A stretch of DNA of 64,000 nt from Gordonia amicalis NBRC 100051 = JCM 11271 (GTDB lineage: Bacteria > Actinomycetota > Actinomycetes > Mycobacteriales > Mycobacteriaceae). The translations under genes were made by a program, and so were the position numbers. The stretch covers positions 1 to 64,000 of the forward strand of contig NZ_BANS01000014.1 of NCBI RefSeq assembly GCF_000332995.1, written 5' to 3'. Positions 1,982 to 16,641 of this stretch are shown here, in pieces. Under the pieces are notes generated by a model, which saw only the letters and a program-made list of their open reading frames with translations, ran no database searches and was not told the DNA's origin. Positions within the stretch are counted from its first letter, which is position 1. The number at the start of each line of letters is the position of its first letter.

Positions 1982-3221
1982 ATGGCGGAGCTCACCACAC
2001 TTCTCGACCAGCTCATCGAGATCACCCCACCCACCGACGACCCCACCGGCCGAACAACTCTCGAACAACTCGACACCTGGCGGTTGATACGCAACGTCGC
2101 CGACCACCAGATCGCAACGCATGCAGAAAAACTCGATGATCTACGCGTTGCAGAAAGGCTGGTTCCACCACCAAGAAGCTGCTGATCGAGATGGGATTCG
2201 CCCCCGCAGTATCAACACGCACCACCCGCATCGCCGACGCGATGGACACATTGGGCAAGGTCGAGGCCTGCGCGGCCGACGGACGTCTCTCCGCCGAGGT
2301 CGTCGACGCCATGGTGCGCGGAATGTCGACCATCAAGAAACGCTCCCCCACACAGCTCTCCGACGGCGACCACGCCATCTACGAGACCGAGCTCCTCACC
2401 CAGGCCCTGTCCGGCGCCACACCCACCGAAATACAGAAACACGCCCAGACCATCGGCAACACCATCGCTGACGATCAGGGCGGCATCCCAGCCAGCGACG
2501 ACCGCACCCTCGACACCCTCTCCCACCACACGACCGATGACAGTCGAGTCGAAATCCATGCCAACGTGACGCAACTCGTGGGCGAGAAGTTCATCGCGAT
2601 GATCGACGAACGCAGCTCCCCCAGCCCGAACCCGACGGGTCGCCCGATCGACGCTCGGCCGCCCAGATCCGCGCGGACGCACTGGAGGTGCTGTTAGATC
2701 AAGCTGCCGCAGGTGCGGCGATGGACACCATCGGCACCCCCAGAACCCAAGTGGCGTTGACCATCCCCGCCGACGGCGGCAACCCAGCATTCCTACCCTG
2801 GACCGGACCGGTCACCCACGCCATCGCCAAACAACTGTCCTGCGACGGGACCCTCACCGAGATCATCATCGACGGCGAGACCGTGCCACTGCAGATGGGC
2901 CGCGAACGACGACTCTTCCCAGCCCACCTACGCAAGGCGATCATCATCCGCGACCAGACCTGCATCAAATGCGGTGCGCCGCCATCCCATACACAGGTCC
3001 ATCACATCCAACACTGGACCGACGACGGTGACACCGACCTCGACAACGGCTGCCTGCTCTGCCAACGCTGCCACACCCAAGTCCACCACAACGGCTGGGA
3101 CATCCTCCTCGGCTACGACCGCCACCCCTGGCTCATCCCACCCGCCGACATCGACCCTCAGCGCCGACCGCTACCCGCCTACAACCGCCGCATCATGCGC
3201 CTAGACGACATCGCCGCCTGA
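1982..3221 (+). pseudogene. DUF222 / HNH endonuclease (13E12-type), two frameshifts
   Basis: Three consecutive reading-frame segments together give one DUF222-HNH protein. The N-terminal segment runs from ATG 1982 (MAELTTLLDQLIEI) to about 2160. The middle segment follows in the next frame to about 2625. The last segment runs in the third frame to TGA 3221. The junctions read naturally if single bases are restored: near 2162, before TTKKLLIEMG, and near 2625, before PDGSPDRRSAAQ. The C-terminus carries the HNH zinc/nuclease module CIKCG, VHHIQHW, DNGCLLCQRCH. DUF222-HNH genes are multicopy mobile-like genes of actinobacteria, and M. tuberculosis copies are known SOS targets, matching the LexA box upstream. 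Either a decayed copy or sequence error; an intact relative lies at 44325-45929. Confidence 0.8.
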
Positions 3222-3242
3222 CAAAACAGACTCACGCGCAGC

Positions 3243-3290
3243 GGGTTTCGATACGGCTCGTCGCAAGCTCCTCACCTACTCAACCAGCAG
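3243..3290. repeat. Intergenic imperfect inverted repeat (REP-like)
   Basis: About 48 bp with outer arms GGTT and AACC and a GAGC/GCTC-rich interior lies between the 3' ends of two genes. It resembles short intergenic palindromic repeats common in actinobacterial genomes. I see only one copy in this window, so its repeat nature is an inference. The rest of 3222-3378 holds nothing recognisable. Confidence 0.35.
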
Positions 3291-3378
3291 AGGCACCCGG
3301 CCACCAGCCGGGACCGCATCCGTTCCTTGACAACTCCACAGTGGAAATCCGGTTACCCGAGGTGGCCAGGAGGATTCC

Positions 3379-3987
3379 TCAGGCGCCGGAATCCTCCTGG
3401 TCGCTGGAGGTCTGAGCCCCCTCGACCACGGATTCGCCTGGGACATAACGCCCTTCGAGCGGAGCGCCGGCCTCGGGTAGCGCGTCCTTGTCGATGAGGT
3501 GCTCGAAAGCCAGGAGGTTGCGCAGGGATTCGCCACGCGAGACGCGCCACGCCCATTCGCGCTGGATCGAGGTGAGGAACCCGAGTTCGAGCAGGGTGTT
3601 GAAGTCACCGTCGGCCGCCTCGAGGACCTGCCCGAGGACGCGGTCGAGTTCATCCGAGCCGAGCGCGTCGGCCGAGATCCGGCCGACCAGGTAGATGTCC
3701 CCGGTGTTGTCGATGGTGTAGGCGACGCCGTACAGCCGACGGTTGCGCTTGAGGAGGTATCTGTAGACGCCGGTGTGGTTCTCGTCCGGCCGGCGACACA
3801 CGAAGGCCTCGACCCTGACCCCGTGCTCACTGGCGGTGAGCAGCACCGTCGTCTTGAGTTTCTGCTCACCCGGCAGTTCCAGGATGACGTGGTCGACGTC
3901 GGCGCCACCGCCGCTCTTCCGCGAGTAGGCGATCTCGTTCTCGGTCAGTGTCTTTTCGAGCAGGTCGACGACCTCGGTGCGACTCAC
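3379..3987 (-). CDS. YbjN domain-containing protein
   Basis: A 202-residue protein that aligns by eye with the YbjN/T3SS-chaperone-like fold family, including the conserved run VYRYLLKRNRRLYGVAYTIDNTGDIYLVGRI around residues 72-103. It has no signal peptide or membrane segment, so it is probably cytosolic. It begins 40 nt after mshA on the same strand; M. tuberculosis has the same pair (Rv0486-Rv0487). The molecular role of actinobacterial YbjN proteins is unclear. Linkage to mycothiol synthesis is suggested only by the operon. Confidence 0.8.
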   Translation of the reverse strand: MSRTEVVDLLEKTLTENEIAYSRKSGGGADVDHVILELPGEQKLKTTVLLTASEHGVRVEAFVCRRPDENHTGVYRYLLKRNRRLYGVAYTIDNTGDIYLVGRISADALGSDELDRVLGQVLEAADGDFNTLLELGFLTSIQREWAWRVSRGESLRNLLAFEHLIDKDALPEAGAPLEGRYVPGESVVEGAQTSSDQEDSGA

Positions 3988-4027
3988 GACATCCTCTCAG
4001 CTGGGGAACGGGGTTCGGCGAGACCGT

Positions 4028-5395
4028 TCAGACGGTCACCCGGTTACGCCGCCGACGCCAGCGCCGGCGTACTCGTGCGGGCCCACCCGGGCCTTGCGCC
4101 GCCGCCTGTTCGGCCTCTGCGTGGGCGGCATCCGACTGGGCGGCGAAGGAGTGCATTGCGTGGCGGTAGCTCTCGATCAGCTGGTCAACCGTGTGCTCCC
4201 AGGAGAACCTCTCGGCGTGCCGACGGGCGTTGCGGCCGAGTTCAGCCAGCCGATCGGGTTGCGCGAGAAGCTTTTCCAGCGCATTCGTCCAGTCACCGAC
4301 CGCGTGACCGTTGACCAGCACGCCGGTGCGGCCGTCGTCGACGGCGACGCCAAGACCTCCCACGTTGGCGGCGATGACCGGCGTCCCACAGGCCTGCGCC
4401 TCGATGGCCACGAGCCCGAAACTCTCGGAATGGCTCGGCACCGCGACCACATCTGACGCGCGGTACACCTGGACCAAGCGGTCCGACGGCTGCGGCGGGA
4501 GGAAGGTGACGGACTCGGAGATCCCGAGTTCGGCGACCTGATCCATCAGCGCGGTCGGCCGCTGAAGCCCGGAACCCGAAGGCCCGCCGACGATCAGGAG
4601 CCGCAGCTGTCGCCCGGACGCGGACGCATCCTTGATCAGGGGCGCGATCGCCGAGACCAGGAGGTCGGGCGCCTTGAGCGGCTGGATTCGTCCCACGAAT
4701 GTCACGATCGTCTCGTCGGGGTCGAGGCCGAGGATCGATCTGGCTTCCGCCGACGATCCGGGGGTATAGCACTCGAGGTCGGCGCCCGGCGTCACCACGT
4801 CGATGCGGTCGGCGTCGGCGTCGTACATCGAGAGAAGTTCCACCGCTTCGGTTTCGGTGTTCGCGACCAGCCGATCGGCCTCGCCGACCACCTGCTGCTC
4901 GCCGATGACCCGCAGCTGCGGTTCGGCGGTGTCGCCCTCGGCCAGTGCGGCGTTCTTCACGGCGGCCAGGGTGTGGGCGGTGTGCACCAGCGGCACACCC
5001 CATCGGTCGCGCGCGAGCCAGCCGACCTGTCCCGACAGCCAGTAATGCGAGTGGATCACGTCGTAGTGGCCGGGCGCCTGCGCCGCCTCGGCCCGCAACA
5101 CCCCCGTGGTGAAGGCACACAACTGAGCGGGGAGGTCGCGTTTGTCGAGGCCCTCGAACGGTCCGGCGACCACGTTACGGACGGTCACGCCCGGAGCGGC
5201 CGCGACCGAGTGCGCATCGGACGACGACGTCGCCCGGGTGAAGATCTCGACCTCGATACCGCGCCGCGCCAGCCGGATCGCGGTCTGCCACACGTAGACG
5301 TTCATCCCACCCGCGTCACCGGTGCCCGGCTGCGCCAACGGCGAGGTGTGCACGGAGATCAGCGCGACACGCCGCGGCAACGGGCTGGAGGTCAT
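4028..5395 (-). CDS. mshA: D-inositol-3-phosphate glycosyltransferase MshA
   Basis: First committed step of mycothiol synthesis: transfer of GlcNAc from UDP-GlcNAc to 1L-myo-inositol 1-phosphate. GT-B fold of family GT4. The N-terminal loop [12 protein letters not shown] (residues ~24-35) and the donor-site region [20 protein letters not shown] are both intact. Length is 455 aa from ATG 5395, normal for MshA, plus an Arg-rich C-terminal tail. The start was chosen because GGAGG precedes it; an in-frame upstream start at 5449 lacks this. A -10-like TAAGGT also lies 7 nt before the ATG. Confidence 0.95.
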
Positions 5396-5500
5396 GGCCT
5401 CCACCTTAGAGAAATGGCGTCGACGGTGACGCGCGCCCTCCGCTTCCACCAGCGCTCACCCGAGCAGTCCCGCGGCTTCGCGTCCGGCCCGACGATCCCC

Positions 5501-5526
5501 TACACTGTTTTCGGTAACGATTGTCA
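5501..5526 (+). promoter_or_regulatory. Promoter and candidate metal-sensor operator of the ABC importer
   Basis: A -10-like TACACT at 5501-5506 is followed by TAACGATTGTCA (5515-5526), an imperfect palindrome with 8 of 12 matching positions. The A/T-rich ATT-centred form resembles Zur/Fur-family sites. It lies between the -10 and the start codon, where a repressor would block transcription. The match is weak, so this is a candidate only. Confidence 0.4.
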
Positions 5527-5544
5527 TTTGCGAAAAAGGGTGTC

Positions 5545-6489
5545 ATGAGGAAATCGCTTCTGGCCGCGGCCGGAGTTCTGTCCGCCGCCGCGCTGGTGCT
5601 CACCGGTTGCTCGAGCGACTCCGGGAACGGAGACGGCACCCCGACCGTGGTGACGTCGACCAACGTCTGGGGCTCGGTCGCCTCCGCGGTCGCCGGCGAC
5701 AAGGCCACCGTCACCGCCCTGTACACCAGCACCGATGGCGATCCCCATGAGTTCGAGCCGTCCGCCGCCGACACCGCGACGGTCGCCGACGCCGACATCC
5801 TCGTGATGAACGGCGGTCACTACGACGCCTACATGGAGCAGGCCGCGAAGTCCTCGGACGCGACCGTCGTCGATGCATTCGAACTCGCCGGCAGCGACGA
5901 GCACGATGCCGGCGACCACACCGACCATGGCGACGCAGGTCACGACCACGGCACCGAGAACGAGCACGTCTTCTACGACCTGCCGGTGGTCGCGGAGGTC
6001 GCCGGCAAGATCGCCGATGCGCTGTCCGAGCAGGACCCGGAGAACGCCGGGACCTACCGTGCGAACGCCGAGACCTTCACCTCCGGCATCGACGGTCTGC
6101 GGACCGAGCTCGCCGGCATCCGCAAGGCGCACGACGGCACGAAGGTCGCCCAGACGGAGCCGCTCGCGGGTTACCTGCTCACCGAGGCCGGCCTGGTCGA
6201 CGCGGCTCCCGCCGGGTTCACCCAGGCCGTCGAGGAGGGTCAGTCGCCGTCCGCCGCGGACCGCGCCGCCATGCAGGATCTCCTCGCATCCCGCGGCGTC
6301 GCCGTCCTGATCTACAACGTCCAGGCCATCGACCCGGTGACCCAGGCGATGCTCGACGTCGCGAAATCCTCGAAGGTGCCGGTTGTCGAGTTCACCGAGA
6401 CCCTCCCGGACGGCGTCACCGACTACCTCGCCTGGCAGCGCGCACAGATCGACGCGCTCGCGGCAGCCCTCGACACCGAGAAGAGGTGA
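5545..6489 (+). CDS. Zinc/manganese ABC transporter substrate-binding lipoprotein
   Basis: Periplasmic-side metal-binding lipoprotein of the ZnuA/cluster A-I family, 314 aa from ATG 5545, which has AAGGG just upstream. The signal peptide ends in the lipobox LTGC. The central His/Asp-rich loop (HDAGDHTDHGDAGHDHG, ~residues 118-134) favours zinc. Likely metal ligands include the His in GDPHEFEP and the His in ENEHVFYD. First gene of a three-gene operon: it ends 5 nt before the ATPase start. Zinc is inferred from the His-rich loop; manganese cannot be excluded. Confidence 0.9.
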   Translation: MRKSLLAAAGVLSAAALVLTGCSSDSGNGDGTPTVVTSTNVWGSVASAVAGDKATVTALYTSTDGDPHEFEPSAADTATVADADILVMNGGHYDAYMEQAAKSSDATVVDAFELAGSDEHDAGDHTDHGDAGHDHGTENEHVFYDLPVVAEVAGKIADALSEQDPENAGTYRANAETFTSGIDGLRTELAGIRKAHDGTKVAQTEPLAGYLLTEAGLVDAAPAGFTQAVEEGQSPSAADRAAMQDLLASRGVAVLIYNVQAIDPVTQAMLDVAKSSKVPVVEFTETLPDGVTDYLAWQRAQIDALAAALDTEKR

Positions 6490-6494
6490 CCGCG

Positions 6495-7298
6495 ATGACG
6501 GTGGGCACCGACCCGGTGGTGACGTTCTCGGGTGCGCGACTCGGCTTCGGCGACCGCGTGCTCTGGGACGACCTCGACCTGACGATCCGCCCGGGTGAGT
6601 TCGTCGCCGTGCTCGGTCCCAACGGCTCCGGCAAGACGTCCCTACTTCGTGTCCTGCTGCGTCAGTACCCTCTCGACAGCGGCGCCGTCGCGACCACCGG
6701 CGCGATCGGCTACATCCCGCAGCAACACGCCGATGACGCCGACCCCATGGCGATCCGCGGCCGGGACCTGGTCGGTTTCGGCGTCGACGGCAGCCGGTGG
6801 GGTCTCGGCCTGCGCGGCCGGTCGCGCAGGCGCGAACTCGTCGACCGGGCGCTCGCCGCGGTGGATTCGCTCCCCTACGCCGACGCACCGCTCGGCGTCC
6901 TCTCCGGCGGCGAACAGCAGCGACTGCGCGTGGCCCAGGCCGTCGTCAGCGATCCCGCCCTCCTCTTGTGCGACGAGCCGCTGGCGAGCCTGGATCCCAC
7001 CAATCAGCAGGTCGTGGTCGACCTCATCGACCAGCGTCGACGTCAGGCCGGGACCGCGGTCGTGTTCGTCACGCATGAGATCAACCCGATCCTCCCCTAC
7101 GTCGATCGTGTGCTCTACCTGGTCGGCGGGCGGTTCCGCATCGGCACCCCCGACGAGGTGATGACCACCGAGACGCTCAGCGAGCTGTACGGCAGCGACG
7201 TCGAGGTGCTCCGGGTCAATGGTCGACTCATCGTGATCGGCGGCGAGGACGCACACCACTGCGTCGACATCGCCGACGCCGGAAGCCAGTCCGCATGA
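6495..7298 (+). CDS. Metal ABC transporter ATP-binding protein
   Basis: ATPase subunit of the importer, 267 aa. Walker A GPNGSGKTS near residue 38, Q-loop IPQQHADD, signature LSGGEQQRL, Walker B LLLCDEPLASLD and switch His in FVTHE are all present. ATG 6495 is preceded by GAAGAGG at 8 nt spacing; a GTG at 6486 overlapping the previous stop is the alternative start. The 3' end overlaps the permease start by 4 nt (ATGA), indicating translational coupling. Confidence 0.92.
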   Translation: MTVGTDPVVTFSGARLGFGDRVLWDDLDLTIRPGEFVAVLGPNGSGKTSLLRVLLRQYPLDSGAVATTGAIGYIPQQHADDADPMAIRGRDLVGFGVDGSRWGLGLRGRSRRRELVDRALAAVDSLPYADAPLGVLSGGEQQRLRVAQAVVSDPALLLCDEPLASLDPTNQQVVVDLIDQRRRQAGTAVVFVTHEINPILPYVDRVLYLVGGRFRIGTPDEVMTTETLSELYGSDVEVLRVNGRLIVIGGEDAHHCVDIADAGSQSA

Positions 7299-8164
7299 GC
7301 GTGACCTCGCTGGCCGTCGAACGTCGGTTCAGCGACCTCTGGGACTTCTCCGAAACCGTGAACCTGCTCGGCTACGACTTCATGCAGCAGGCGCTGCTCG
7401 CGATGATGTTGCTCGGACTGCTCGGCGGGCTGCTGGGACCGCTGATCGTGGCGCGGCAGATGTCGTTCGCGGTCCACGGCTGCAGCGAGTTGTCCGTGAC
7501 GGGTGCGGCGGCCGCTCTGCTGATCGGCTTCAGTGTCAATCTCGGTGGTGTCATCGGTGCGGTGATCGCGGCCGCGGTATTCGGGTTCCTCGGCAACAAG
7601 GCCCGCGAACGCGACTCCGTGATCGGTGTCGTGATGGCGTTCGGCCTCGGAATCGGTGTCCTGTTCCTCGCCCTCTACGGCCGCATCGGTACCGGTTTCG
7701 CGCTGCTGACCGGACAGGTCGTCAGCGTCGGGATCGACGGTCTCGTGGCGATCGCGATCACCACCGCCGTGGTCGTCGCGGTGCTGGCGGTGATCTATCG
7801 ACCGCTCCTGTTCGCATCCACCGATCCGCGGGTCGCGCAGGCGCATGGCGTGCCCGTCCGGACGCTGTCCGTCGTCTTCGCGGTCATCATGGGACTCGCG
7901 GCGGCCCAGGGTGTCCAGATCATCGGCGCGCTGCTGGTGATGTCGCTGCTGATCACCCCGGGTGCGGCGGCGGCGCGGGTGACCGCGAATCCGGCTCGGG
8001 CTCTGGTGCTGTCGGTCGTCTTCGCCGAGATCGCCGCGGTCGGCGGGTTGCTGATGTCACTCGCGCCGAAACTCCCGGTCTCGGTGTTCGTCACGATCAT
8101 CTCGTTCGTGATCTACGTCGTGTGCCGCTTCATCGGCTCACGCCGCGTGCACGCCACGCGCTAG
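7295..8164 (+). CDS. Metal ABC transporter permease (ZnuB/cluster A-I family)
   Basis: Polytopic membrane subunit, 289 aa, with about eight hydrophobic segments. Family-typical stretches include MLLGLLGGLLGPLIVARQMS near the N-terminus and ALLVMSLLITPGAAAAR near residue 210. It completes the importer with the two upstream genes. Its stop codon lies in the first unit of a 16-bp tandem triplication shared with the convergent lipoprotein gene. Confidence 0.92.
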   Translation: MSVTSLAVERRFSDLWDFSETVNLLGYDFMQQALLAMMLLGLLGGLLGPLIVARQMSFAVHGCSELSVTGAAAALLIGFSVNLGGVIGAVIAAAVFGFLGNKARERDSVIGVVMAFGLGIGVLFLALYGRIGTGFALLTGQVVSVGIDGLVAIAITTAVVVAVLAVIYRPLLFASTDPRVAQAHGVPVRTLSVVFAVIMGLAAAQGVQIIGALLVMSLLITPGAAAARVTANPARALVLSVVFAEIAAVGGLLMSLAPKLPVSVFVTIISFVIYVVCRFIGSRRVHATR

Positions 8165-8209
8165 TACTCCTGGGCGCTAGTACTCCTGGGCGTCAGTACT
8201 CCTCGGCGA
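8162..8209. repeat. Tandem triplication of a 16-bp unit at a gene junction
   Basis: Unit TAGTACTCCTGGGCGC occurs at 8162, again at 8178 with one change, and at 8194 with three changes. The first copy supplies the TAG of the permease gene. The third encodes the end (EEY) of the convergent lipoprotein, whose stop falls at the second/third unit border. It looks like slippage at the junction of two convergent genes. Confidence 0.85.
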
Positions 8210-8735
8210 ACCCCGGATTGCAGCGGGCGCCGATCATGTCCTCTTCGGTGACGACGGGGCGTCCCGGTTCGAGGTTCCAGCTCGGTTTCTCGGGTTCGAC
8301 GATCCGCGCGAAGCGCCAGTGGCACTCGAACTGCGCCTGCATGCCGGGGGTGTCGGCGCCGGCGTCGAGTCCGACGACCTCCCGCCACGCCGCGGCCATG
8401 GCCGTGGGGTCCTGCGTGTACCGCCCGGAAGTGGTCGGGAACACCGAGAGGCTGGGACCGACCTCGGTGTCGGTCCATTCGACGCGTTCGATGAAGGGTG
8501 CCCGGTAGACCACCGTCGGAGTGGTCGGCGAGTCGCTCGCCCCGTGGGTCGTCGTGGCCGCCCCCGCCGTGACACCGCTGGGCGTGACACTGCCCGGCGT
8601 CGTACTGCTCGGGGTGGCGCTGATCGGGGCACCGGTACCGGCGGGTTCGGTCGAACCACATCCGCCGAGGACGATCGCGACGCCGACACCACCGGCGCAG
8701 GCAGAAGCGAAGATCCGCGCCCTCGTTTGTGCCAT
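8193..8735 (-). CDS. Lipoprotein with DUF2599-like domain
   Basis: A 180-residue secreted lipoprotein with signal peptide and lipobox VLGGC, then a Ser/Thr/Pro-rich linker (~residues 25-65), then a compact domain. Conserved-looking features of that domain are VEWTDTEVGPSLSVFPT, a Cys in QFECHW, PSWNLEPGRP and a Cys in GARCNPG, suggesting one disulfide. ATG 8735 has AGGAG upstream, preferred over ATG 8750. I recall this pattern as DUF2599, without a known function. It diverges from the GH5-like gene with about 48 bp between starts. Confidence 0.65.
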   Translation of the reverse strand: MAQTRARIFASACAGGVGVAIVLGGCGSTEPAGTGAPISATPSSTTPGSVTPSGVTAGAATTTHGASDSPTTPTVVYRAPFIERVEWTDTEVGPSLSVFPTTSGRYTQDPTAMAAAWREVVGLDAGADTPGMQAQFECHWRFARIVEPEKPSWNLEPGRPVVTEEDMIGARCNPGFAEEY

Positions 8736-8783
8736 CGACGTACTCCTCATGACGCCACCCTAGGCGACGAGTAGCCTGCAGCT

Positions 8784-9899
8784 GTGAGACACCGGCGCAC
8801 GATGCGGATGCTCGCCGCCGCCCTCGTCGTCGTGCTCGGCGGACTGATCTGCATGACCGGCTGCGCCCTCACCCCGCTGGCCGGTCCACCGGAGTCCACC
8901 CAATCCCACCGAGTCCGCGCCACGCCCACCGGCCTCACCCTCGACGGGAAGCCGTGGTGGCCCGTCGGTTTCAACGCCTACCAGCTCGGCACGGACTGGT
9001 CGGTCAACACCGGTTGTGGCGCGGAGGTCGATCTCGACGACTATTTCGCGCAACTGCCGCCGCGCGCGCTCACCCGTTTCAACCTGTATTCGTCCTTTGT
9101 CGTCGACAAGCGCAGTGGGCTTATGGATTTCGGACCGCTCGACCGGGTCTTCGCGGCCGCCTCCCGTCATCGGCAGCTGGTGTTGCCGGTGCTCACGGGC
9201 GGATCGGGAGACTGCGAGGACGGCCGGTTCAAGGACCGTGGCTTCTATGTGAACGGCTGGCGCACCCAGAAGTCGCGAAGTCACCAGACCTATGCCGAGT
9301 GGGTGCAGACGGCCGTGACCCGGTGGCATGACGAACCGTCGATCATCGGCTGGGAACTGGTCGGCGAACCGGAGGCCAGCAGCTGCGGCACCGCCTGCGA
9401 CTGGCGGAACCGGGTGTGCCCCGACGACGCCACCGCGGTGCTGCGAGGCTTCTTCGATCAGGCCGGTGCGCACCTCCGTTCCTTCGACGACGCACGACCG
9501 ATCTTCTCCGGACTGGTGGGTGGCGACCAGTGCGGAATCGCCGGGGACGCCTATGCGGAGGTCGCCGGGTCGAGCGGGATCGATGTCCTCGACTTCCACG
9601 ACTACAGCTCCGGCACGCACTCCGGACCGCGCGGCAGCAATCTGCCCACACGCATCACCCAGTCGCGTCAGCTCGGAAAACCACTGGTGGTCAACGAGAT
9701 CGGCGTCGAAGCCGGATCGTGCCTGCCGCTGTCCACCCGGGCGCGGCAGCTCGACGCCATCATCACCCGCCAGCGCGACGCCGGAACCGCGGGCGCACTG
9801 CTGTGGTCGTATGTACCCGACCCCCGCACCTCGGAATGCACCTACGACATCGGCCCACACGATCCCGCGTGGAAGGTCGTCCGCGACCATGCGCGCTGA
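8784..9899 (+). CDS. GH5-like (cellulase/mannanase fold) secreted glycoside hydrolase
   Basis: A 371-aa exported protein with signal peptide and lipobox MTGC near residue 30, so probably anchored outside the membrane. The mature part reads as a (beta/alpha)8 glycosidase. The acid/base would be the Glu in WELVGEPE (residue ~195, the NEP-type site) and the nucleophile the Glu in VVNEIGVEAG (~residue 310). DFHDY supports the fold. The GTG at 8784 follows TAGCCT (8772-8777) by 6 nt, fitting a leaderless transcript. It converges, with a 6-bp gap, on the polysaccharide-type locus, recalling the endoglucanase (BcsZ) that accompanies bacterial cellulose synthases. The substrate is not predictable. 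Confidence 0.75.
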   Translation: MRHRRTMRMLAAALVVVLGGLICMTGCALTPLAGPPESTQSHRVRATPTGLTLDGKPWWPVGFNAYQLGTDWSVNTGCGAEVDLDDYFAQLPPRALTRFNLYSSFVVDKRSGLMDFGPLDRVFAAASRHRQLVLPVLTGGSGDCEDGRFKDRGFYVNGWRTQKSRSHQTYAEWVQTAVTRWHDEPSIIGWELVGEPEASSCGTACDWRNRVCPDDATAVLRGFFDQAGAHLRSFDDARPIFSGLVGGDQCGIAGDAYAEVAGSSGIDVLDFHDYSSGTHSGPRGSNLPTRITQSRQLGKPLVVNEIGVEAGSCLPLSTRARQLDAIITRQRDAGTAGALLWSYVPDPRTSECTYDIGPHDPAWKVVRDHAR

Positions 9900-9905
9900 T
9901 CGTCG

Positions 9906-11564
9906 TCATCTCATGATCTGATAGACACGCCAATCCGGCAGGTCCGCACCGTCGTTGCGCGCCTCGAGGACGAGCGCCCCGATCTGGGCACCGTTCTCGT
10001 ACATGGTCGGATAACGCTGGTTGATCGCATCGGCCACACCTCGACCCTCGACCGGAGCGGTGAGGAAGTACCTGACACCGAGGTCCGCGGGAGCGTTGAG
10101 CCGTTGGGCGAAGTCCCGGTCCGACGGGATGACGAACTGTCGCGGCCGCTCGGACTGCACGACCACCGCGAATCCGTAGACGGTGTCACACAGGACCGAA
10201 CCGTCCGGTAGGGCAAGCCCGTCGAGGTACTCGGCCAGAGCACGTTCGGTGGAGAACGAGCGGACCACGCGTTGTTCATCGAGATACTTCTGCTGAACCG
10301 AATCCGGTTGCGGGTTCACCACCGATCCCAGCGCGAACTCCTGCGGGGCGTACTTCGGTGACGTCATCCCCATCGCGGTCACGGGCAGCGCCGACGCCAT
10401 CACCACGATGGCCACCGTGCACGCGATCGTGTACCCCCACCGCGATGCGTAGGGCCGCACAGGCGCCGGGTCCGCGTGGGCGCCCGCGCGACGCATCGGG
10501 ATCGGCCGGCGCAGCGGTACCGACATCAACGCCACGATGGCGGCCAGGAGGATCACCGTCATGTAGAACCGCAGGAAGCCGAAGGTCGAACCCCGCGCGT
10601 AGCCGAAGACCTGGAAGGCCAATACCGCCACGATCACGAGCCCCGGCAACAGGGGTGACAGCCGGTGGCGCCGCGCACGCACGCCGATCAGCCCCACGAC
10701 GAGGATCGGCAACAGCGGCGCGAGAATGGCCAACTCGGTGATGGAGAACCAGATGGCTTCGCTCGTCGTCGACGATCCGCTGCCGCCGGATTGCGCGATG
10801 ATGGCGGCGTTGCCGTACTCGGAGGTGAACTGTGCGAACGCGTTCCCGGTGATCAGCCAGCCGGTCGCCGCCCAGGCGAGGAAGGCCAGCGCGCTCGGGG
10901 CGACGACGAGGGTGATGTCGACGAGGCTTCGCGACAGACGTTTTCGCCCGTCGCGGCGGCGGTAGGTGACCCATCCGACGACGCATCCGGCGGCCAGCGC
11001 GGCCGCCCCGCCGTCGTAGCGGGTGAGGTAGGACAGTGCGAGCGCGATTCCCGCGACGACAAGCTCGTGTACGTCATCGGTGGAGACCCAGCGGATCAGG
11101 CGGCGCGACGCCCAGGCGAGAAAGAACAGGTACGGCGCCTCGCTCATCCCGTTGGCGCCGTACAGCACGACCATCGGATTCGCTGCGTAACAGATCGTGA
11201 AGACCGCGGCGACAACCGGATCGAGACCCCGATCGCGAGCGATACCCGAGACCTGGACGACCGAACCGGCCATGAACATCGACGACATGATCACCGCCGA
11301 CAGCGCGTGGGTGGTCATCTCCGGCCACCACGGGCTCAACGCGACGAGGGGCAGTTGCACCACCGCGGTCAGCGGGGTGAAGACGAAGCCGATGGCCGAC
11401 AGACGCGGTGTCCGGCTGAACAACACGCTCTGCGCCGACTGGACCCTGGACAACGCGTCACCGAAGAAGAGATGCACCTCGGTCGCCAGGTACACCCCGA
11501 CGACCAGATACGGCAACCAGGCGGCCAGGAAGATCAGGACCCCGACCCGAAGCCGCCGGTTCAC
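9906..11564 (-). CDS. GT-C type polytopic membrane protein (ArnT/PMT-like), putative glycosyltransferase
   Basis: A 552-aa protein with about ten to twelve hydrophobic segments in the first 420 residues and a soluble C-terminal domain outside. Topology and stretches such as GDALSRVQSAQ in the first external loop, ANPMVVLYGANGMSEAPY and YLTRYDGGAA fit lipid-phosphate-sugar-dependent GT-C enzymes. The acidic residues in those loops could serve as catalytic bases. GTG 11564 overlaps the stop of the GT2 gene by 4 nt, so it is the last gene of the locus operon. The donor and acceptor are unknown. Confidence 0.65.
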   Translation of the reverse strand: MNRRLRVGVLIFLAAWLPYLVVGVYLATEVHLFFGDALSRVQSAQSVLFSRTPRLSAIGFVFTPLTAVVQLPLVALSPWWPEMTTHALSAVIMSSMFMAGSVVQVSGIARDRGLDPVVAAVFTICYAANPMVVLYGANGMSEAPYLFFLAWASRRLIRWVSTDDVHELVVAGIALALSYLTRYDGGAAALAAGCVVGWVTYRRRDGRKRLSRSLVDITLVVAPSALAFLAWAATGWLITGNAFAQFTSEYGNAAIIAQSGGSGSSTTSEAIWFSITELAILAPLLPILVVGLIGVRARRHRLSPLLPGLVIVAVLAFQVFGYARGSTFGFLRFYMTVILLAAIVALMSVPLRRPIPMRRAGAHADPAPVRPYASRWGYTIACTVAIVVMASALPVTAMGMTSPKYAPQEFALGSVVNPQPDSVQQKYLDEQRVVRSFSTERALAEYLDGLALPDGSVLCDTVYGFAVVVQSERPRQFVIPSDRDFAQRLNAPADLGVRYFLTAPVEGRGVADAINQRYPTMYENGAQIGALVLEARNDGADLPDWRVYQIMR

Positions 11565-13104
11565 GTGGCGCCTCCGGGCTCTTCCCCACTCGTGCCGTGT
11601 GCGCCCTGCTCACCGGGATCGTCCGCCGCGGATTCCTGATGGCTGGTCGACAGGCCGTGGAAGGTCTTCTCCCAGTATGACGGATTGACCAGGATCTGCC
11701 ACATGCCCTTGATGGCCGCGACGCTCATCATCAGCCAGTACAGCGGGATCAGCAACGCCGAGAACAGCAGTTCGCTCCGGTCGTCCTCCCGGATCGCGAT
11801 CAGGTTCATGTATATCGCCGCACCGTTGCCCAGCAGCATCGAGACGAGCGCGAGGTAGTAGATGGGTCCCGGGAAGAGGTCGACGACGATCAGCGGCTGC
11901 CCCGCGATCCACAGCGCGAGGATCAGCCAGAACACCATGTTGACGCACGCGATCACCGGCGTGCCCGCGATGAGCAGCGTGAAGCGGACGAACGCAACGG
12001 GTCCGAGGATGTGCCACAGCTTGACCGGGTGACGCATGTGCACGAGCCAGGTCTGCATGCAGCCCTTGTACCAACGGGATCGCTGGCGCACCCAGTTGAT
12101 GGCGTCGACGTTGGCCTCTTCCAGCGTGATCGAGTCCAGCACGACCGTGCGGTAACCGTGGTCGGCGATCCGCACCCGAGGTCGGCGTCCTCGGTGACGT
12201 TGAAGGGCTCCCACGCCCCGATCCGGTCGAGCACATCGCGTTTGAAGTGATTCGACGTGCCGCCCAACGGAATCGGCGCCCGACTCACCATCATCCCGGG
12301 CAGCAGGAAGCCGAACCAGATCCCGTAGTCCGCGGTGAACCACTCGGTGAGCATGTTGTCGCGGACGTTGTGGAAGCTGAGCTTGCCCTGGACGCACACG
12401 ACCGACTCGTCGTCGGAGTTGTTCAGCACGTAGACCGCACGACGCAGTTGCAGGGGATCGGGTTTGTCCTCGGCGTCGAAGATGGTGACGATGTCACCGG
12501 TCGCGAAGTGCATGCCGAAATTGCACGCCTTGGGTTTGGTTCGCGGTTGTGCCGGCGGTGTGAGGACCACGGTGACAAGGCCATTCGCCTCGACCCCGCG
12601 TGCGGCTTCGATCGTCGGCTCGTCGTCCTCCTCGAGCAGCAGGAGGACCTGGAGCTTCTCGCGGGGGTACTCGATGGTCTCCATGGCGGCGACGAGGTCG
12701 CCGACCACTTCGGGCTCACCGTATGCGGGGACGAGGACCGTGTAGCGGGGAAGTTCCTCGTCGGGGATCGACCGGGCCTGCTCGTCGCTGACCCGGATTG
12801 CCCCGTTCACCGGTCCCCGCCGGAAGATCACCAGCCGATCGGCGAGAGTGACGACGTAGGCGACGGTCGCCGTCGACACCAGCGCCGCGCAGGTGCCCAC
12901 CGGGAAGAAGACCATCAGCACGGCGATGACGCCGAGCAGCGTGAACCCGATGATCTTCTGAATCCGGTTGAACGCCACCGATGCCGACATGTCCGCATCG
13001 GCCTCGCGCAACCGGTCGACGGCGTCGCGGAGCGCTTCCGCACGGTAGTCCTCGTCGGCGAGCAGTTCGGCGACCGGCCGCCGGGGCCGCGTGCTGCGCG
13101 CCAC
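11561..13104 (-). pseudogene. Processive GT2 glycosyltransferase (cellulose synthase/XagB-like), one frameshift
   Basis: Two frames join into one family-2 synthase of about 515 aa. Two N-terminal membrane segments come first. The catalytic domain has LPRYTVLVPAYGEPEVV, LLLEEDD, the metal-binding DAEDKPDP, TEDADLG as acceptor-site motif, and the processivity motif QRSRW. Several C-terminal membrane segments follow. The frame breaks at the CCC run 12175-12177: one extra C would join DADLG to VRIADHG. GTG 13104 starts the first frame. Alternatively GTG 13141, overlapping the upstream stop as GTGA, starts it if the six-C run 13104-13109 has one base too many. Either a natural knockout or two homopolymer errors; all catalytic motifs are preserved, which favours a working gene. 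Confidence 0.8.
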
Positions 13105-13137
13105 CCCCCGGCGCGTCGGCGTCGCGTTCGTCGATGG

Positions 13138-14688
13138 TCACGGCTCGGCCCTCGCGACCTCGACGAGTTGTGACCGCACCAGCCCGCCGGCGAGCCCCAC
13201 CAGGAGATCGCGATCCTTGTACTGCGGGTCGGTGTCGAGGAGAACCGCGTTGCCGCGCAACAGGATCGTCATGAGCGAGGTGAGGTTTTCCAGGAGGGTG
13301 ATCCGCGGTTCCGGGAAGTACGCCGCCGGCTCGTGATCGTCGACGGCCCAGATCATCACCTGTTGCGTGCGGCGCCCGTTGTTCCACCACCACGAGACCA
13401 CCGTGTACGTCAGGTATCTCGCATCGTCGACCACGCTGCACATTTTTCCGCGAACCCCGAACGGCAACGCCACGTCGACGGGTTCGTTCGAGCGTTCGTC
13501 GGACAGGTCGTAGCGGAAGATGTCGGGATACACCTCGAGCGCGAGCGGTCGCCGGCTGTCGACGCTGTCGACGACGACGCGGCGGGGTCGGGCGAATTTG
13601 TCGAATGCCCGTGTCCCCCGGCTCTGGACGAGCACCTGGCGGGTGAGGACCGCACCGGGACCGTACAGGCGGGACACCCAGCCGTAGACGCGAACCGATT
13701 CCTGACGCCAGCCCGGTGGGATGTTGAGCTGCCCGCCGATCTCGAGCTGCGGGTATGTGTTGCTCTGCCAGGTACTGCCCACCGGCGGGGTGGGGATGAA
13801 TGCCAGCAGGATGGCCGCGAGGACCACCACCAGCACGGGCCGCCCGACGAAGCCGACCGTCGGATCCTTGACCTCCCCTCGCACCGGCGGTGACCATCTC
13901 CGCCCGCCGCGTCGCCGGTAACTGACCAGCATGATCCCGGAGGTCGCGACGGCCGCGATCAGAGCCGGTCCGGGGACGAGCACATTGCGCGGCGCCTCGA
14001 GGGCGTTGAGCACCAGCAGTGCGAGAAGGCCCACCGCACCGGCGATGAGCGCCGCGACCGCCTTGCGCCGCCAGGTACGTCCCACCGCGACGACCGTGGC
14101 GGCGACGGCCATCAGCACGAGGGCGAATCCGGCGGCCATCGAGGTGCCGCCAAGCGCCAGCACCAACCCCCGCACCGGGATGGGGAAGATGAGCAGGAAC
14201 ACCAGCCAGGCCCACTTGTAGCGGGAGACCGGCCGCAGACCGAACAGCAGGATCGACGCTCCGAGCACGAACATCCACAGCGCCAGCAGATCCATGTGCG
14301 ACGTCAGATAGGCCCGGCCGTAGCGCGGCGTGACGAGAAGCTTGCCGGCCACCGCCAGGACGATCACCACGATTCCGACGATCACGTCGGTCTGCCGGTC
14401 GTGGATGGGTGGCTCGTCGAAGTCGCGCCACGAGACCCCGACGACGGCGATCAGGCTCAGGACCACGAGCACGGGCACGGGCACGGGCACGGGCACGTAC
14501 AGGATGAGTGTCTGGGCCCGCAGTTCGTCGATCACCGCCGCGATGGTGTTCCAGAAGCCGAGCACCGTGCACGTCACCAGCAGCACCCACCGGAACGCGA
14601 TGACCCGCCATGGGTGATCGCCGAACAGCGGCGTCTCGGGACAGGAGAGTGTCGCCATGGCGACGACCTGTGAGGCGGTCAGGGCCAT
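13138..14688 (-). CDS. Polytopic membrane protein with large C-terminal extracytoplasmic domain, unknown function
   Basis: 516 aa. About eight or nine hydrophobic segments fill residues 25-320; a soluble domain of about 190 residues follows, starting at GSTWQSNTYPQLEIGG. The segment WLVFLLIFPIPVRG recalls exosortase-like proteins and the soluble part slightly recalls EpsI, but no membrane-embedded catalytic Cys is present, so an active exosortase is unlikely. A hexamer tract encodes VPVPVPVP in an early hydrophobic segment. It begins 6 nt after the BcsB-like gene and its stop overlaps a GTG start for the GT2 gene, so the three are co-translated. The function is unknown; a structural or export role in polysaccharide assembly is inferred from position. 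Confidence 0.7.
   Translation of the reverse strand: MALTASQVVAMATLSCPETPLFGDHPWRVIAFRWVLLVTCTVLGFWNTIAAVIDELRAQTLILYVPVPVPVPVLVVLSLIAVVGVSWRDFDEPPIHDRQTDVIVGIVVIVLAVAGKLLVTPRYGRAYLTSHMDLLALWMFVLGASILLFGLRPVSRYKWAWLVFLLIFPIPVRGLVLALGGTSMAAGFALVLMAVAATVVAVGRTWRRKAVAALIAGAVGLLALLVLNALEAPRNVLVPGPALIAAVATSGIMLVSYRRRGGRRWSPPVRGEVKDPTVGFVGRPVLVVVLAAILLAFIPTPPVGSTWQSNTYPQLEIGGQLNIPPGWRQESVRVYGWVSRLYGPGAVLTRQVLVQSRGTRAFDKFARPRRVVVDSVDSRRPLALEVYPDIFRYDLSDERSNEPVDVALPFGVRGKMCSVVDDARYLTYTVVSWWWNNGRRTQQVMIWAVDDHEPAAYFPEPRITLLENLTSLMTILLRGNAVLLDTDPQYKDRDLLVGLAGGLVRSQLVEVARAEP
14470..14493. repeat. Hexanucleotide microsatellite inside a membrane-protein gene
   Basis: Four perfect copies of CACGGG plus a partial fifth encode Val-Pro repeats in a hydrophobic segment of the 516-aa protein. 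Gain or loss of units keeps frame but changes segment length by two residues each. Confidence 0.9.
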
Positions 14689-14694
14689 GCGCGC

Positions 14695-16641
14695 TCAGCC
14701 CCCGGAGGAGGTCCGCCGCCGGCGCCGCAGCAGGAAAGTCGCCAGTGCCGTCGCCACCACGACGCCCGCCGCGACGACGGTGACGGTGACCCACGAGGTC
14801 CCGCTCGACGACTCGGACGGATCCGGTGCCACCTCGTCGGCGACCACGACGACCGGCTGCTGGCCGGCCACCTGCAGGACGGCGTCGCCGCCGAGTGACG
14901 GCCAGCGGTCGGGGTCGGCGTCCAGCCAGGCCAGTACGGCATCGAGGTCCGCGGCGGTCCCCGTGGACGTCGCCAGCAGGACCGTCCGCCCGTCCTCCCG
15001 CGCCACCTGCAGCGATCCGAAGCGTGCGGCCGGGGCGAGGACGACGTCGGAACGCTGCCCGTCGGCTCCGAGCACGGAGAGTGTGCCCCCGTCTGCCTCG
15101 ATGGGCAGCGGGAGTTCGGGTACGTCCCGTCCGTCGGCGGCAACGATCACGACCGGCCCGTTCGTGGACATCGCGTCGGCGACCGGCATGACGTCGACGC
15201 CGAGCCGGACCGCCGACAGTCGCTGCAGTCCGGTCATCAGCGCGACCGCGCGGCGGACGTCGTCGACCCCGCCGTCGGTCCAGGCCAGCGCCGTACGGGG
15301 CATGAGGGCCTGCGGAAGTGATGCGAAACCGGACGGCTGCGGCGGGTCGGCGACCTCGGATCTGACCTCACCGGTCGAGGAGAGACTCAGCGATGCCCGC
15401 GTCCCGGTTCCGCATCCTTCGCCGACGTCGGGATGGTTGTAGGTCACCGTGACCTCGGTGAACCGCGCCAGGAGATCCGGCGGGATGTCGACCCACGTGT
15501 TGTACCTGCCGGACGGGTCCGCCGGCACGGAGGCGATCACCCGCGGCCCGACGGTCACCGCGATCTGACCGCCGAGCGGGGTGTAGGTGCCCGACAACTG
15601 GACTCGGACGTCCTCGGAAGGTCGTCCCAGTCTCGCCTGGTCGATCCCGAAGGAGATCGACGGCCATCCCGCGGCGGCGGTGACCAGTTGATCGCTGACA
15701 CCCAGGTCGGCCAGTGTGTTGACCGCCGGCGCGAGTTGCGGTGCGGCAAACGGTGCTCCGGCCACGGCGGCCGAACTGATCGCGATGCTCGACAGCTCCG
15801 AGGTGAGGAACTGCACCTGCGTCGCCAGCTCCTCGGGGTTGCCGCCGATTCGCAACACCGGCCATCCTGCTCCCGGTCCGAGGCTCAGGCCGGCCGGCGC
15901 ATCGGTACTGATGACGACCTGCCGTTCGAGCGGGCCGACGGCAGCGGCCGGCCTGGTCTCGTTCCGGGGCAGCGACGCGGTCCGGATGTCGACGGCCGCC
16001 GAACCGTAGTTCGCGACCACCGCGGTCGCGAGTTGCACGGCCGCGGCACCTTCCGCGGGTTTCACATCCTCGGGGACGTAGATGGTCAGGGCGCGCAGGA
16101 TCGGGGGCAGGAATCCGGCGACTCTCGCCGGTGTCGCCTCGCGTCCGCCGTAGGCCACGACCGCGTTGACGATCCGGAATCGGTTGTCGGCGTCGAAGTC
16201 ACAGGAACCGGCCGTGCGCAGGTAGGTGCGCAGGACGATGTCGGCGGAATTCCGGTCGAGGCGCACGCCTCGAAGGGGCAGGGCGATCGGCGAATTCACC
16301 GCCGGGTCGATCGGCGTCCGCGAGATGAGTCGATCACCTTGCAGCACATCGACATTCCCACAGGTGACGAACGACGGGAACTGGGCGGTCCCGCGGATCT
16401 CGGTGGGGGTGAGGTTCGGCGGCACGGCGAGCGAGAGGCTGACCTCTCCCTGTTGTCCTGGAAAAGCGATCGTCGACGACGAGCCGAGATATCGAAGACT
16501 CAACGGCGGTGGCGGGTCACCGGACGCGGCGGCCGCGGGTGGCGCAGAGAGGACCCCCACCGAGGCGCTACCCGCGGTCAGCAGGCCCGCCAACCCGACG
16601 CCCACCGCATGTTTCCAGCGACTTACGCAGGACACGTGCAA
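14695..16641 (-). CDS. Secreted, C-terminally anchored BcsB-like protein
   Basis: A 648-aa protein with an N-terminal signal peptide ending near PPAAAASG, a long extracytoplasmic region, and one C-terminal membrane helix (TVTVVAAGVVVATALATFLL) followed by an Arg-rich cytoplasmic end. The layout and the alternating beta-rich and Rossmann-like parts (GPVVIVAADGRDVPELPLP, then TVLLATSTGTAADLDAVLAWL) match BcsB, the periplasmic partner of cellulose synthase. TTG 16641 was chosen because GGAG lies 9 nt upstream; GTG 16635 is possible. First gene of a four-gene operon with the membrane protein, GT2 and GT-C genes. Homology to BcsB is by architecture, not clear sequence identity. Confidence 0.65.
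   Translation of the reverse strand: MHVSCVSRWKHAVGVGLAGLLTAGSASVGVLSAPPAAAASGDPPPPLSLRYLGSSSTIAFPGQQGEVSLSLAVPPNLTPTEIRGTAQFPSFVTCGNVDVLQGDRLISRTPIDPAVNSPIALPLRGVRLDRNSADIVLRTYLRTAGSCDFDADNRFRIVNAVVAYGGREATPARVAGFLPPILRALTIYVPEDVKPAEGAAAVQLATAVVANYGSAAVDIRTASLPRNETRPAAAVGPLERQVVISTDAPAGLSLGPGAGWPVLRIGGNPEELATQVQFLTSELSSIAISSAAVAGAPFAAPQLAPAVNTLADLGVSDQLVTAAAGWPSISFGIDQARLGRPSEDVRVQLSGTYTPLGGQIAVTVGPRVIASVPADPSGRYNTWVDIPPDLLARFTEVTVTYNHPDVGEGCGTGTRASLSLSSTGEVRSEVADPPQPSGFASLPQALMPRTALAWTDGGVDDVRRAVALMTGLQRLSAVRLGVDVMPVADAMSTNGPVVIVAADGRDVPELPLPIEADGGTLSVLGADGQRSDVVLAPAARFGSLQVAREDGRTVLLATSTGTAADLDAVLAWLDADPDRWPSLGGDAVLQVAGQQPVVVVADEVAPDPSESSSGTSWVTVTVVAAGVVVATALATFLLRRRRRTSSGG

Follow-up and report, generated by a model that had tools for sequence, protein, structure and literature searches.

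How might bacteria of the Mycobacteriales build and export a matrix polysaccharide, and why should a relative of the exosortases stand among the genes that seem to do so? Both questions are raised by a five-gene locus at positions 8784..16641 of the 64,000-nucleotide stretch analysed here (the window; contig NZ_BANS01000014.1 of Gordonia amicalis NBRC 100051 = JCM 11271), which holds genes for a BcsB-like secreted protein, a polytopic membrane protein, a family 2 glycosyltransferase (GT2), a GT-C membrane glycosyltransferase and a lipoprotein resembling glycoside hydrolase family 5 (GH5). The original prediction, made from the letters of the sequence, had read the locus as a polysaccharide synthase-secretion system, and our analysis supports it in that a BcsB-like protein, a processive BcsA-related GT2 and a GT-C protein are joined in one conserved operon. 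Judging from sequence comparison and modelled structure, we put at roughly 70% the probability that the products of the locus form a synthase-dependent complex by which Mycobacteriales assemble and export an exopolysaccharide. Direct support comes from the BcsB-like protein, through its homology and its predicted fold, from the family and motifs of the GT2, from the exosortase ancestry of the polytopic protein together with its loss of motifs, and from the conservation of the operon. Of particular interest is the apparent pairing of cellulose-synthase-like parts with an exosortase relative that lacks the active-site motifs.

Organization and conservation of the locus

All five genes lie where they had been predicted. 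On the minus strand, the gene for the BcsB-like protein (14695..16641, 648 amino acids (aa), TTG start) is followed by those for the polytopic protein (13138..14688, 516 aa), the GT2 (11561 to about 13141) and the GT-C protein (9906..11564, 552 aa). The claim of a nearly gapless operon holds with the GT2 start at GTG 13141, where starts and stops overlap or stand a few bases apart (spacings of -4 to +6 bases); with GTG 13104 as the start, the gap upstream is 33 bases. The gene for the GH5-like lipoprotein (8784..9899, plus strand, 371 aa) converges on the operon and is separated from the GT-C gene by 6 bases. The nearest relatives of the locus are those of G. lacunae, Gordonia sp. 'Campus' and G. 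namibiensis.

Among 201 genomes of the family, the polytopic gene (searched for with one sequence) occurs in 83 and the BcsB-like gene (searched for with a profile) in 93; all 83 genomes with the former also carry the latter, 108 carry neither, and the BcsB-like gene stands alone in 10, three of them at E-values of 1.5e-4 to 5.1e-4 only. This co-occurrence exceeds chance, the Fisher value for it taking no account of kinship between the genomes, and the survey that had been proposed as a check finds the core genes recurring together across the family. A wider scan confirmed 156 relatives of the polytopic protein, of which the best 80 loci were kept (counts per 80 refer to these), spanning Gordonia, Williamsia, Millisia, Tsukamurella, Rhodococcus, Prescottella, Nocardia, Mycobacterium and Mycolicibacterium as well as metagenome-assembled genomes (MAGs). 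The polytopic gene, being the query and located via one peptide pattern, is present in 80/80 by construction; adjoining it are BcsB-like and GT2 genes in 80/80, a GT-C gene in 77/80 and a GH5-like gene in 40/80. At the three loci with no GT-C gene (L074, L095, L126) the available sequence ends there. The 40 loci with no GH5-like gene comprise 35 titled Mycobacterium or Mycolicibacterium, two Actinomycetota MAGs (L095, L127) and L074, L098 and L123, at which the available sequence ends near the core genes. The operon is split in six Rhodococcus loci, where the polytopic and GT2 genes lie apart from the GH5, GT-C and BcsB-like genes; three other loci have the GT-C and BcsB-like genes in opposite orientation, and some genomes hold a second, diverged operon copy (L065, L070).

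The BcsB-like protein and the GT2

The 648-aa protein carries a signal peptide, beta-sandwich domains resembling carbohydrate-binding modules and a C-terminal membrane helix (residues 618-644), and its predicted fold is BcsB-like, with a match over 531 residues. The BcsB architecture proposed for this secreted, C-terminally anchored protein is thereby upheld, and the structure comparison suggested for it agrees. Pfam BcsB (PF03170) matches 15 of 35 members of the BcsB-like family at E<=1, with a best value of 1.2e-6.

Among solved structures, the six closest to the GT2 family are all catalytic subunits of cellulose synthases (4.4e-16 to 5.5e-16), and the motifs LExDD, DAED, TEDxDLG and QRSRWYKGY are present in 29/29 intact relatives. 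Models for CelA, MftF, PgaC and XrtP-associated proteins each match all 29 members (E<=0.001), CelA best, and the XrtG-associated GT2 model matches 28. These relationships bear on the view that the locus is a Mycobacteriales cellulose synthase, its product beta-1,4-glucan and its extra proteins minor accessories. Of the proteins with solved structures, BcsA and BcsB do come closest to the two central proteins, and excerpts of two reports (PMC7952908, PMC12167362) describe cellulose in mycobacterial biofilms with no synthase gene known. Cellulose is nevertheless possible but not implied, since the GT2 of L071 falls far below the CelA cut-off (64.8 bits against a curated 699) and the other three models match just as many members. 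Nor was a PilZ domain found in the GT2s of the four relatives scanned (L071, L087, L113, L065; E<=0.1), in keeping with the earlier remark that none is evident; the hydrolase resembles mannanases more closely than BcsZ; and in Listeria, according to the relevant passages of PMC4125290, the BcsB ortholog PssD pairs with a GT2, PssC, that resembles poly-N-acetylglucosamine and cellulose synthases about equally. On balance, a dedicated cellulose synthase seems to us distinctly unlikely.

In the window itself the GT2 is divided between two reading frames. The N-terminal part, with the LExDD, DAED and TED motifs (12181..13104, minus strand), matches Pfam Glyco_tranf_2_3 at 2.3e-20 and the GT2 profile at an E-value of 3.6e-150, and the C-terminal part, with the QRSRW motif and hydrophobic C-terminal stretches (11561..12177, minus strand), matches that profile at 5.8e-103 in the other frame. 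The match to this profile, built from 29 relatives, covers 12172-13092 in one frame and 11618-12175 in the other; a codon-usage scan places a frame change at about 12180, coinciding with the split. Thus, of the processive GT2 with D,D,QxxRW that had been described, the motifs are present but the single intact gene is not, D,D,TED and QxxRW standing in different frames. Four close same-strand frame changes were flagged in the window, of which those at approximately 6,480, 11,580 and 54,360 are gene boundaries and that near 12,175-12,180 is the only one inside a gene; wider-spaced changes were checked coarsely, and further indels are possible. A second offset at the 5' end of the gene is also possible, where the internal GTG 13104 could be the start, the alternative at 13141 lying in another frame. 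In relatives the GT2 is one open reading frame (ORF) of 450-560 aa in 35/39 of one set and 69/74 of another, the remainder being cut at contig ends, longer via start choice, or odd (400 and 1080 aa). At L039 (5695-8934), a single open frame of 1080 aa spans both GT2 and GT-C, through either a gene fusion or an error in the sequence.

Such a split would be expected if the cluster were decaying into pseudogenes in this strain, and a profile search (E<=1e-5) found no other GT2 copy elsewhere in the genome. Yet the other four genes are open ORFs, the N-terminal part of the GT2 is still 89% identical to its L031 relative, and a small assembly error would give the same picture; we therefore regard decay as a serious but unlikely explanation. 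The present sequence does not tell an isolated assembly error from a genuine frameshift. Because the gene is frameshifted in this assembly, GT2 activity in this strain is uncertain, and our statements on GT2 function rest on the relatives and not on the window gene.

An exosortase relative with lost active-site motifs

The polytopic and GT-C proteins had been described as two extra membrane proteins foreign to known bcs operons. The GT-C protein is indeed an addition; for the polytopic protein, the notion of an extra membrane protein of uncertain kind was rejected, since profile comparison makes it an exosortase relative. It consists of an exosortase-homologous membrane domain and an extracytoplasmic C-terminal domain, and its family aligns end to end with the exosortases of L177 and L174 (hhalign, 99.6%, E 1.5e-23, 493 columns), which themselves score above the PF09721 and TIGR04178 cut-offs. 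Further support comes from HMMER profile matches (1e-20 and 4.6e-6) and from matches of the XrtD, XrtC and XrtA models to some relatives at E<=1. The C-terminal domain is shared with actinobacterial exosortases; EpsI was considered as its identity and not adopted, the domain not being detectably EpsI.

The exosortase catalytic motifs, as set out in the pertinent part of PMC1569441, are Cys-x-Gly, Asn-x-x-Arg and His-x-x-x-Gly. Within the first 330 residues, all three occur jointly in 0/80 members of the polytopic family (singly, CxG in 3, NxxR in 20 and HxxxG in 17); no alignment column exceeds 26% Cys, and 18/80 members are entirely devoid of Cys. The alignments show a protein that has, by all appearances, descended from exosortases and lost the active-site motifs.

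One might ask whether the locus serves protein modification or sorting, with the exosortase-like protein anchoring or moving the BcsB-like protein and the GT2 and GT-C supplying a glycan attached to it. Its four slots are identical to those of the XrtG system, and the BcsB-like proteins end in a C-terminal helix and an Arg cluster that resemble exosortase substrates. Inspection of 72 of these proteins, however, revealed no conserved motif ahead of the helix, unlike in exosortase substrates, and the missing catalytic motifs, the scarcity of Cys and a BcsB fold that favours glycan export all speak against such a function, which we consider very improbable.

Nine mycobacterial loci contain two exosortase-like genes, which flank one BcsB-like gene in L107, L109, L125, L129, L135, L138 and L147 (L099 and L126 likewise have two); these pairs may hint at a heteromeric partner. 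In the diverged copies of the operon type at L065, L070 and L182 (three genera), the exosortase-like proteins also lack CxG.

An actinobacterium outside the family offers a possible bridge. Its operon L177 (genome G513, 2932-9321) carries on one strand genes for a GT-C protein, a 388-aa secreted protein ending in a hydrophobic stretch and an Arg cluster, a motif-complete exosortase and a GT2. The GT2, GT-C and exosortase match the Mycobacteriales profiles at 2.9e-179, 9.4e-95 and 8.6e-35, respectively, and no BcsB-like match was found in the operon at E<=0.01; this GT2/GT-C pair therefore also occurs together with an exosortase that retains its motifs and in the absence of BcsB. At L174 (G283), the GT2 that follows the exosortase matches at no better than 1.4e-4, and a search for a GT-C match found none. 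Most simply, though on the strength of a single clear case, the lineage of Mycobacteriales would have filled the C-anchored slot with a BcsB-like protein and given up the exosortase chemistry. Since a motif-complete exosortase occurs in the same GT2/GT-C operon type and the XrtG system has the same four slots, exosortases may possess an old non-proteolytic role. More tentatively, and with somewhat less than even confidence, we suggest that an exosortase gave up its enzymatic work and persisted as a structural part of a complex that makes a polysaccharide and secretes it, carrying glycan towards the mycomembrane, that its family may have an old non-proteolytic role in exopolysaccharide assembly, and that the locus would in that case be a main matrix-polysaccharide synthase of many Mycobacteriales.

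The GT-C protein and the hydrolase

The GT-C protein matches Pfam PMT_2 with an E-value of 1.3e-5 and 25.9 bits, just under the cut-off of 26.1, and its residues D36 and R40 are invariant in an alignment of 26 sequences. The ten best solved matches of the GH5-like family in PDB profiles are endo-beta-mannanases (best 9.7e-13); 8/21 members, the window protein not among them, are recognised by Pfam Cellulase (GH5, PF00150) at E<=1 (best 8.6e-6). Residues E195, E305, R98, H272, Y274 and W341 are kept in 21/21 proteins, and the two Glu (E195, E305) would correspond to the GH5 catalytic pair, the profile aligning with GH5 mannanases. The position before the acid/base Glu, usually Asn, is Gly in 20/21 and Asn in one, which renders the substrate, and even activity, uncertain. 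A lipobox-like MTGC is present in the window hydrolase and a pattern of this kind in 14/21 relatives. We take the hydrolase to be accessory, because it stands beside 0/35 loci titled Mycobacterium or Mycolicibacterium, some of them on short contigs. The prediction that it faces the operon as BcsZ does is correct as to a convergent exported GH5-like gene; its identity as BcsZ was rejected, the protein being nearest to endo-beta-mannanases and found beside none of the mycobacterial loci.

A beta-mannan or another mannose-containing polymer, trimmed by the mannanase-like lipoprotein, would fit these matches. The donors of GT-C proteins in this group are sugars linked to polyprenyl phosphate, and in actinobacteria the sugar is often mannose. 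Conversely, the finding of the hydrolase beside none of the 35 mycobacterial loci and the Gly before its acid/base Glu weaken the argument, and the sequence does not reveal the donor of the GT2, so that a mannan product strikes us as conceivable but unlikely.

Proposed mechanism and relation to known systems

Several observations weigh against an exopolysaccharide assembly and export complex. PF03170 matches neither the window BcsB-like protein nor anything elsewhere in its genome, no Pfam model matches the BcsB-like or polytopic protein of the window at E<=1, and PF09721 has no match anywhere in this genome. No direct match was detected between the polytopic family and one XrtA-like exosortase (L175), and none was seen with one EpsI. 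The L071 score falls short of the CelA cut-off, an intact GT2 in this assembly had to be rejected, and no cyclic di-GMP (c-di-GMP) receptor was noticed in the operon, PilZ being the only type searched for.

Within the assembly and export complex that we favour, the nature of the polymer and its side chain and the parts played by the exosortase-like protein and the hydrolase are what we infer. The BcsA-related GT2 would build a beta-linked chain from a nucleotide-sugar donor and translocate it via its own membrane channel; the BcsB-like protein, held by its C-terminal helix, would receive the chain outside and lead it through the periplasm-like space in the direction of the mycomembrane. The GT-C protein may add a side sugar on the outer face from a polyprenyl-phosphate donor, the degenerate exosortase may be a non-cutting scaffold or partner in the membrane, touching BcsB or the chain with its outer domain, and the GH5-like lipoprotein, where present, might trim or release the polymer as BcsZ does.

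With the bcs operon (BcsA-BcsB-BcsZ) the locus shares the BcsB fold, a BcsA-related GT2 with D,D,TED,QxxRW and an adjoining exported hydrolase; it differs in that no PilZ was found, the GT2 is below the CelA cut-off, a GT-C protein and a degenerate exosortase are added, and the hydrolase is mannanase-like and not always present. The Listeria pssA-E operon, likened here by its description, is likewise a Gram-positive operon in which BcsB-like PssD accompanies a GT2 (PssC) that is not clearly a cellulose synthase; it has a GGDEF-type c-di-GMP receptor, PssE, and the passages of PMC4125290 concerned do not mention an exosortase relative. The XrtG system of lactobacilli, in the portion of PMC12854382 that describes it, has the same four slots (a C-anchored secreted protein, an exosortase-family protein and two glycosyltransferases), whereas in the present locus a BcsB-like protein fills the C-anchored slot, the exosortase relative has lost the active-site motifs, and the NCBIfam matches listed for 32 polytopic-family members at E<=1 do not include the XrtG model TIGR03110. 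EpsH/exosortase exopolysaccharide loci, as outlined in part of PMC1569441, share the homologous membrane domain and the polysaccharide-gene neighbourhood; CxG, NxxR and HxxxG are not kept here, and the C-terminal domain is not detectably that of EpsI.

The suggestion that the system is undescribed stands in so far as no description of this gene set was found in the open-licence PubMed Central literature, but needs qualifying: in the relevant excerpts, M. neoaurum and M. cosmeticum are credited with putative components of a cellulose synthase (PMC6364259, PMC7952908), and Nocardia testacea with a bcsB gene (PMC13400229). M. tuberculosis is without BcsA and BcsB according to the portions of published accounts that address it, and no record so titled is among the best 80 of 156 loci; the locus alone does not explain that species. 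Many environmental mycobacteria carry the polytopic gene. The four-gene core of the locus is a concrete candidate for the matrix polysaccharide genes of mycobacteria, rhodococci and nocardiae, and its dead exosortase bears on the frequent presence of exosortases among polysaccharide genes.

Neighbouring gene and a record label

A DUF2599 lipoprotein gene (8193-8750; Pfam 4e-37) adjoins the hydrolase gene in the window, as it also does in L032, L035 and L036. The locus of L080 (NZ_JNYV01000003.1), a record titled Kitasatospora arboriphila, is 91-97% identical over five genes to that of L039, and Williamsia muralis (L082) matches L039 at 94-99%; the Kitasatospora record is probably a contamination or wrongly labelled.
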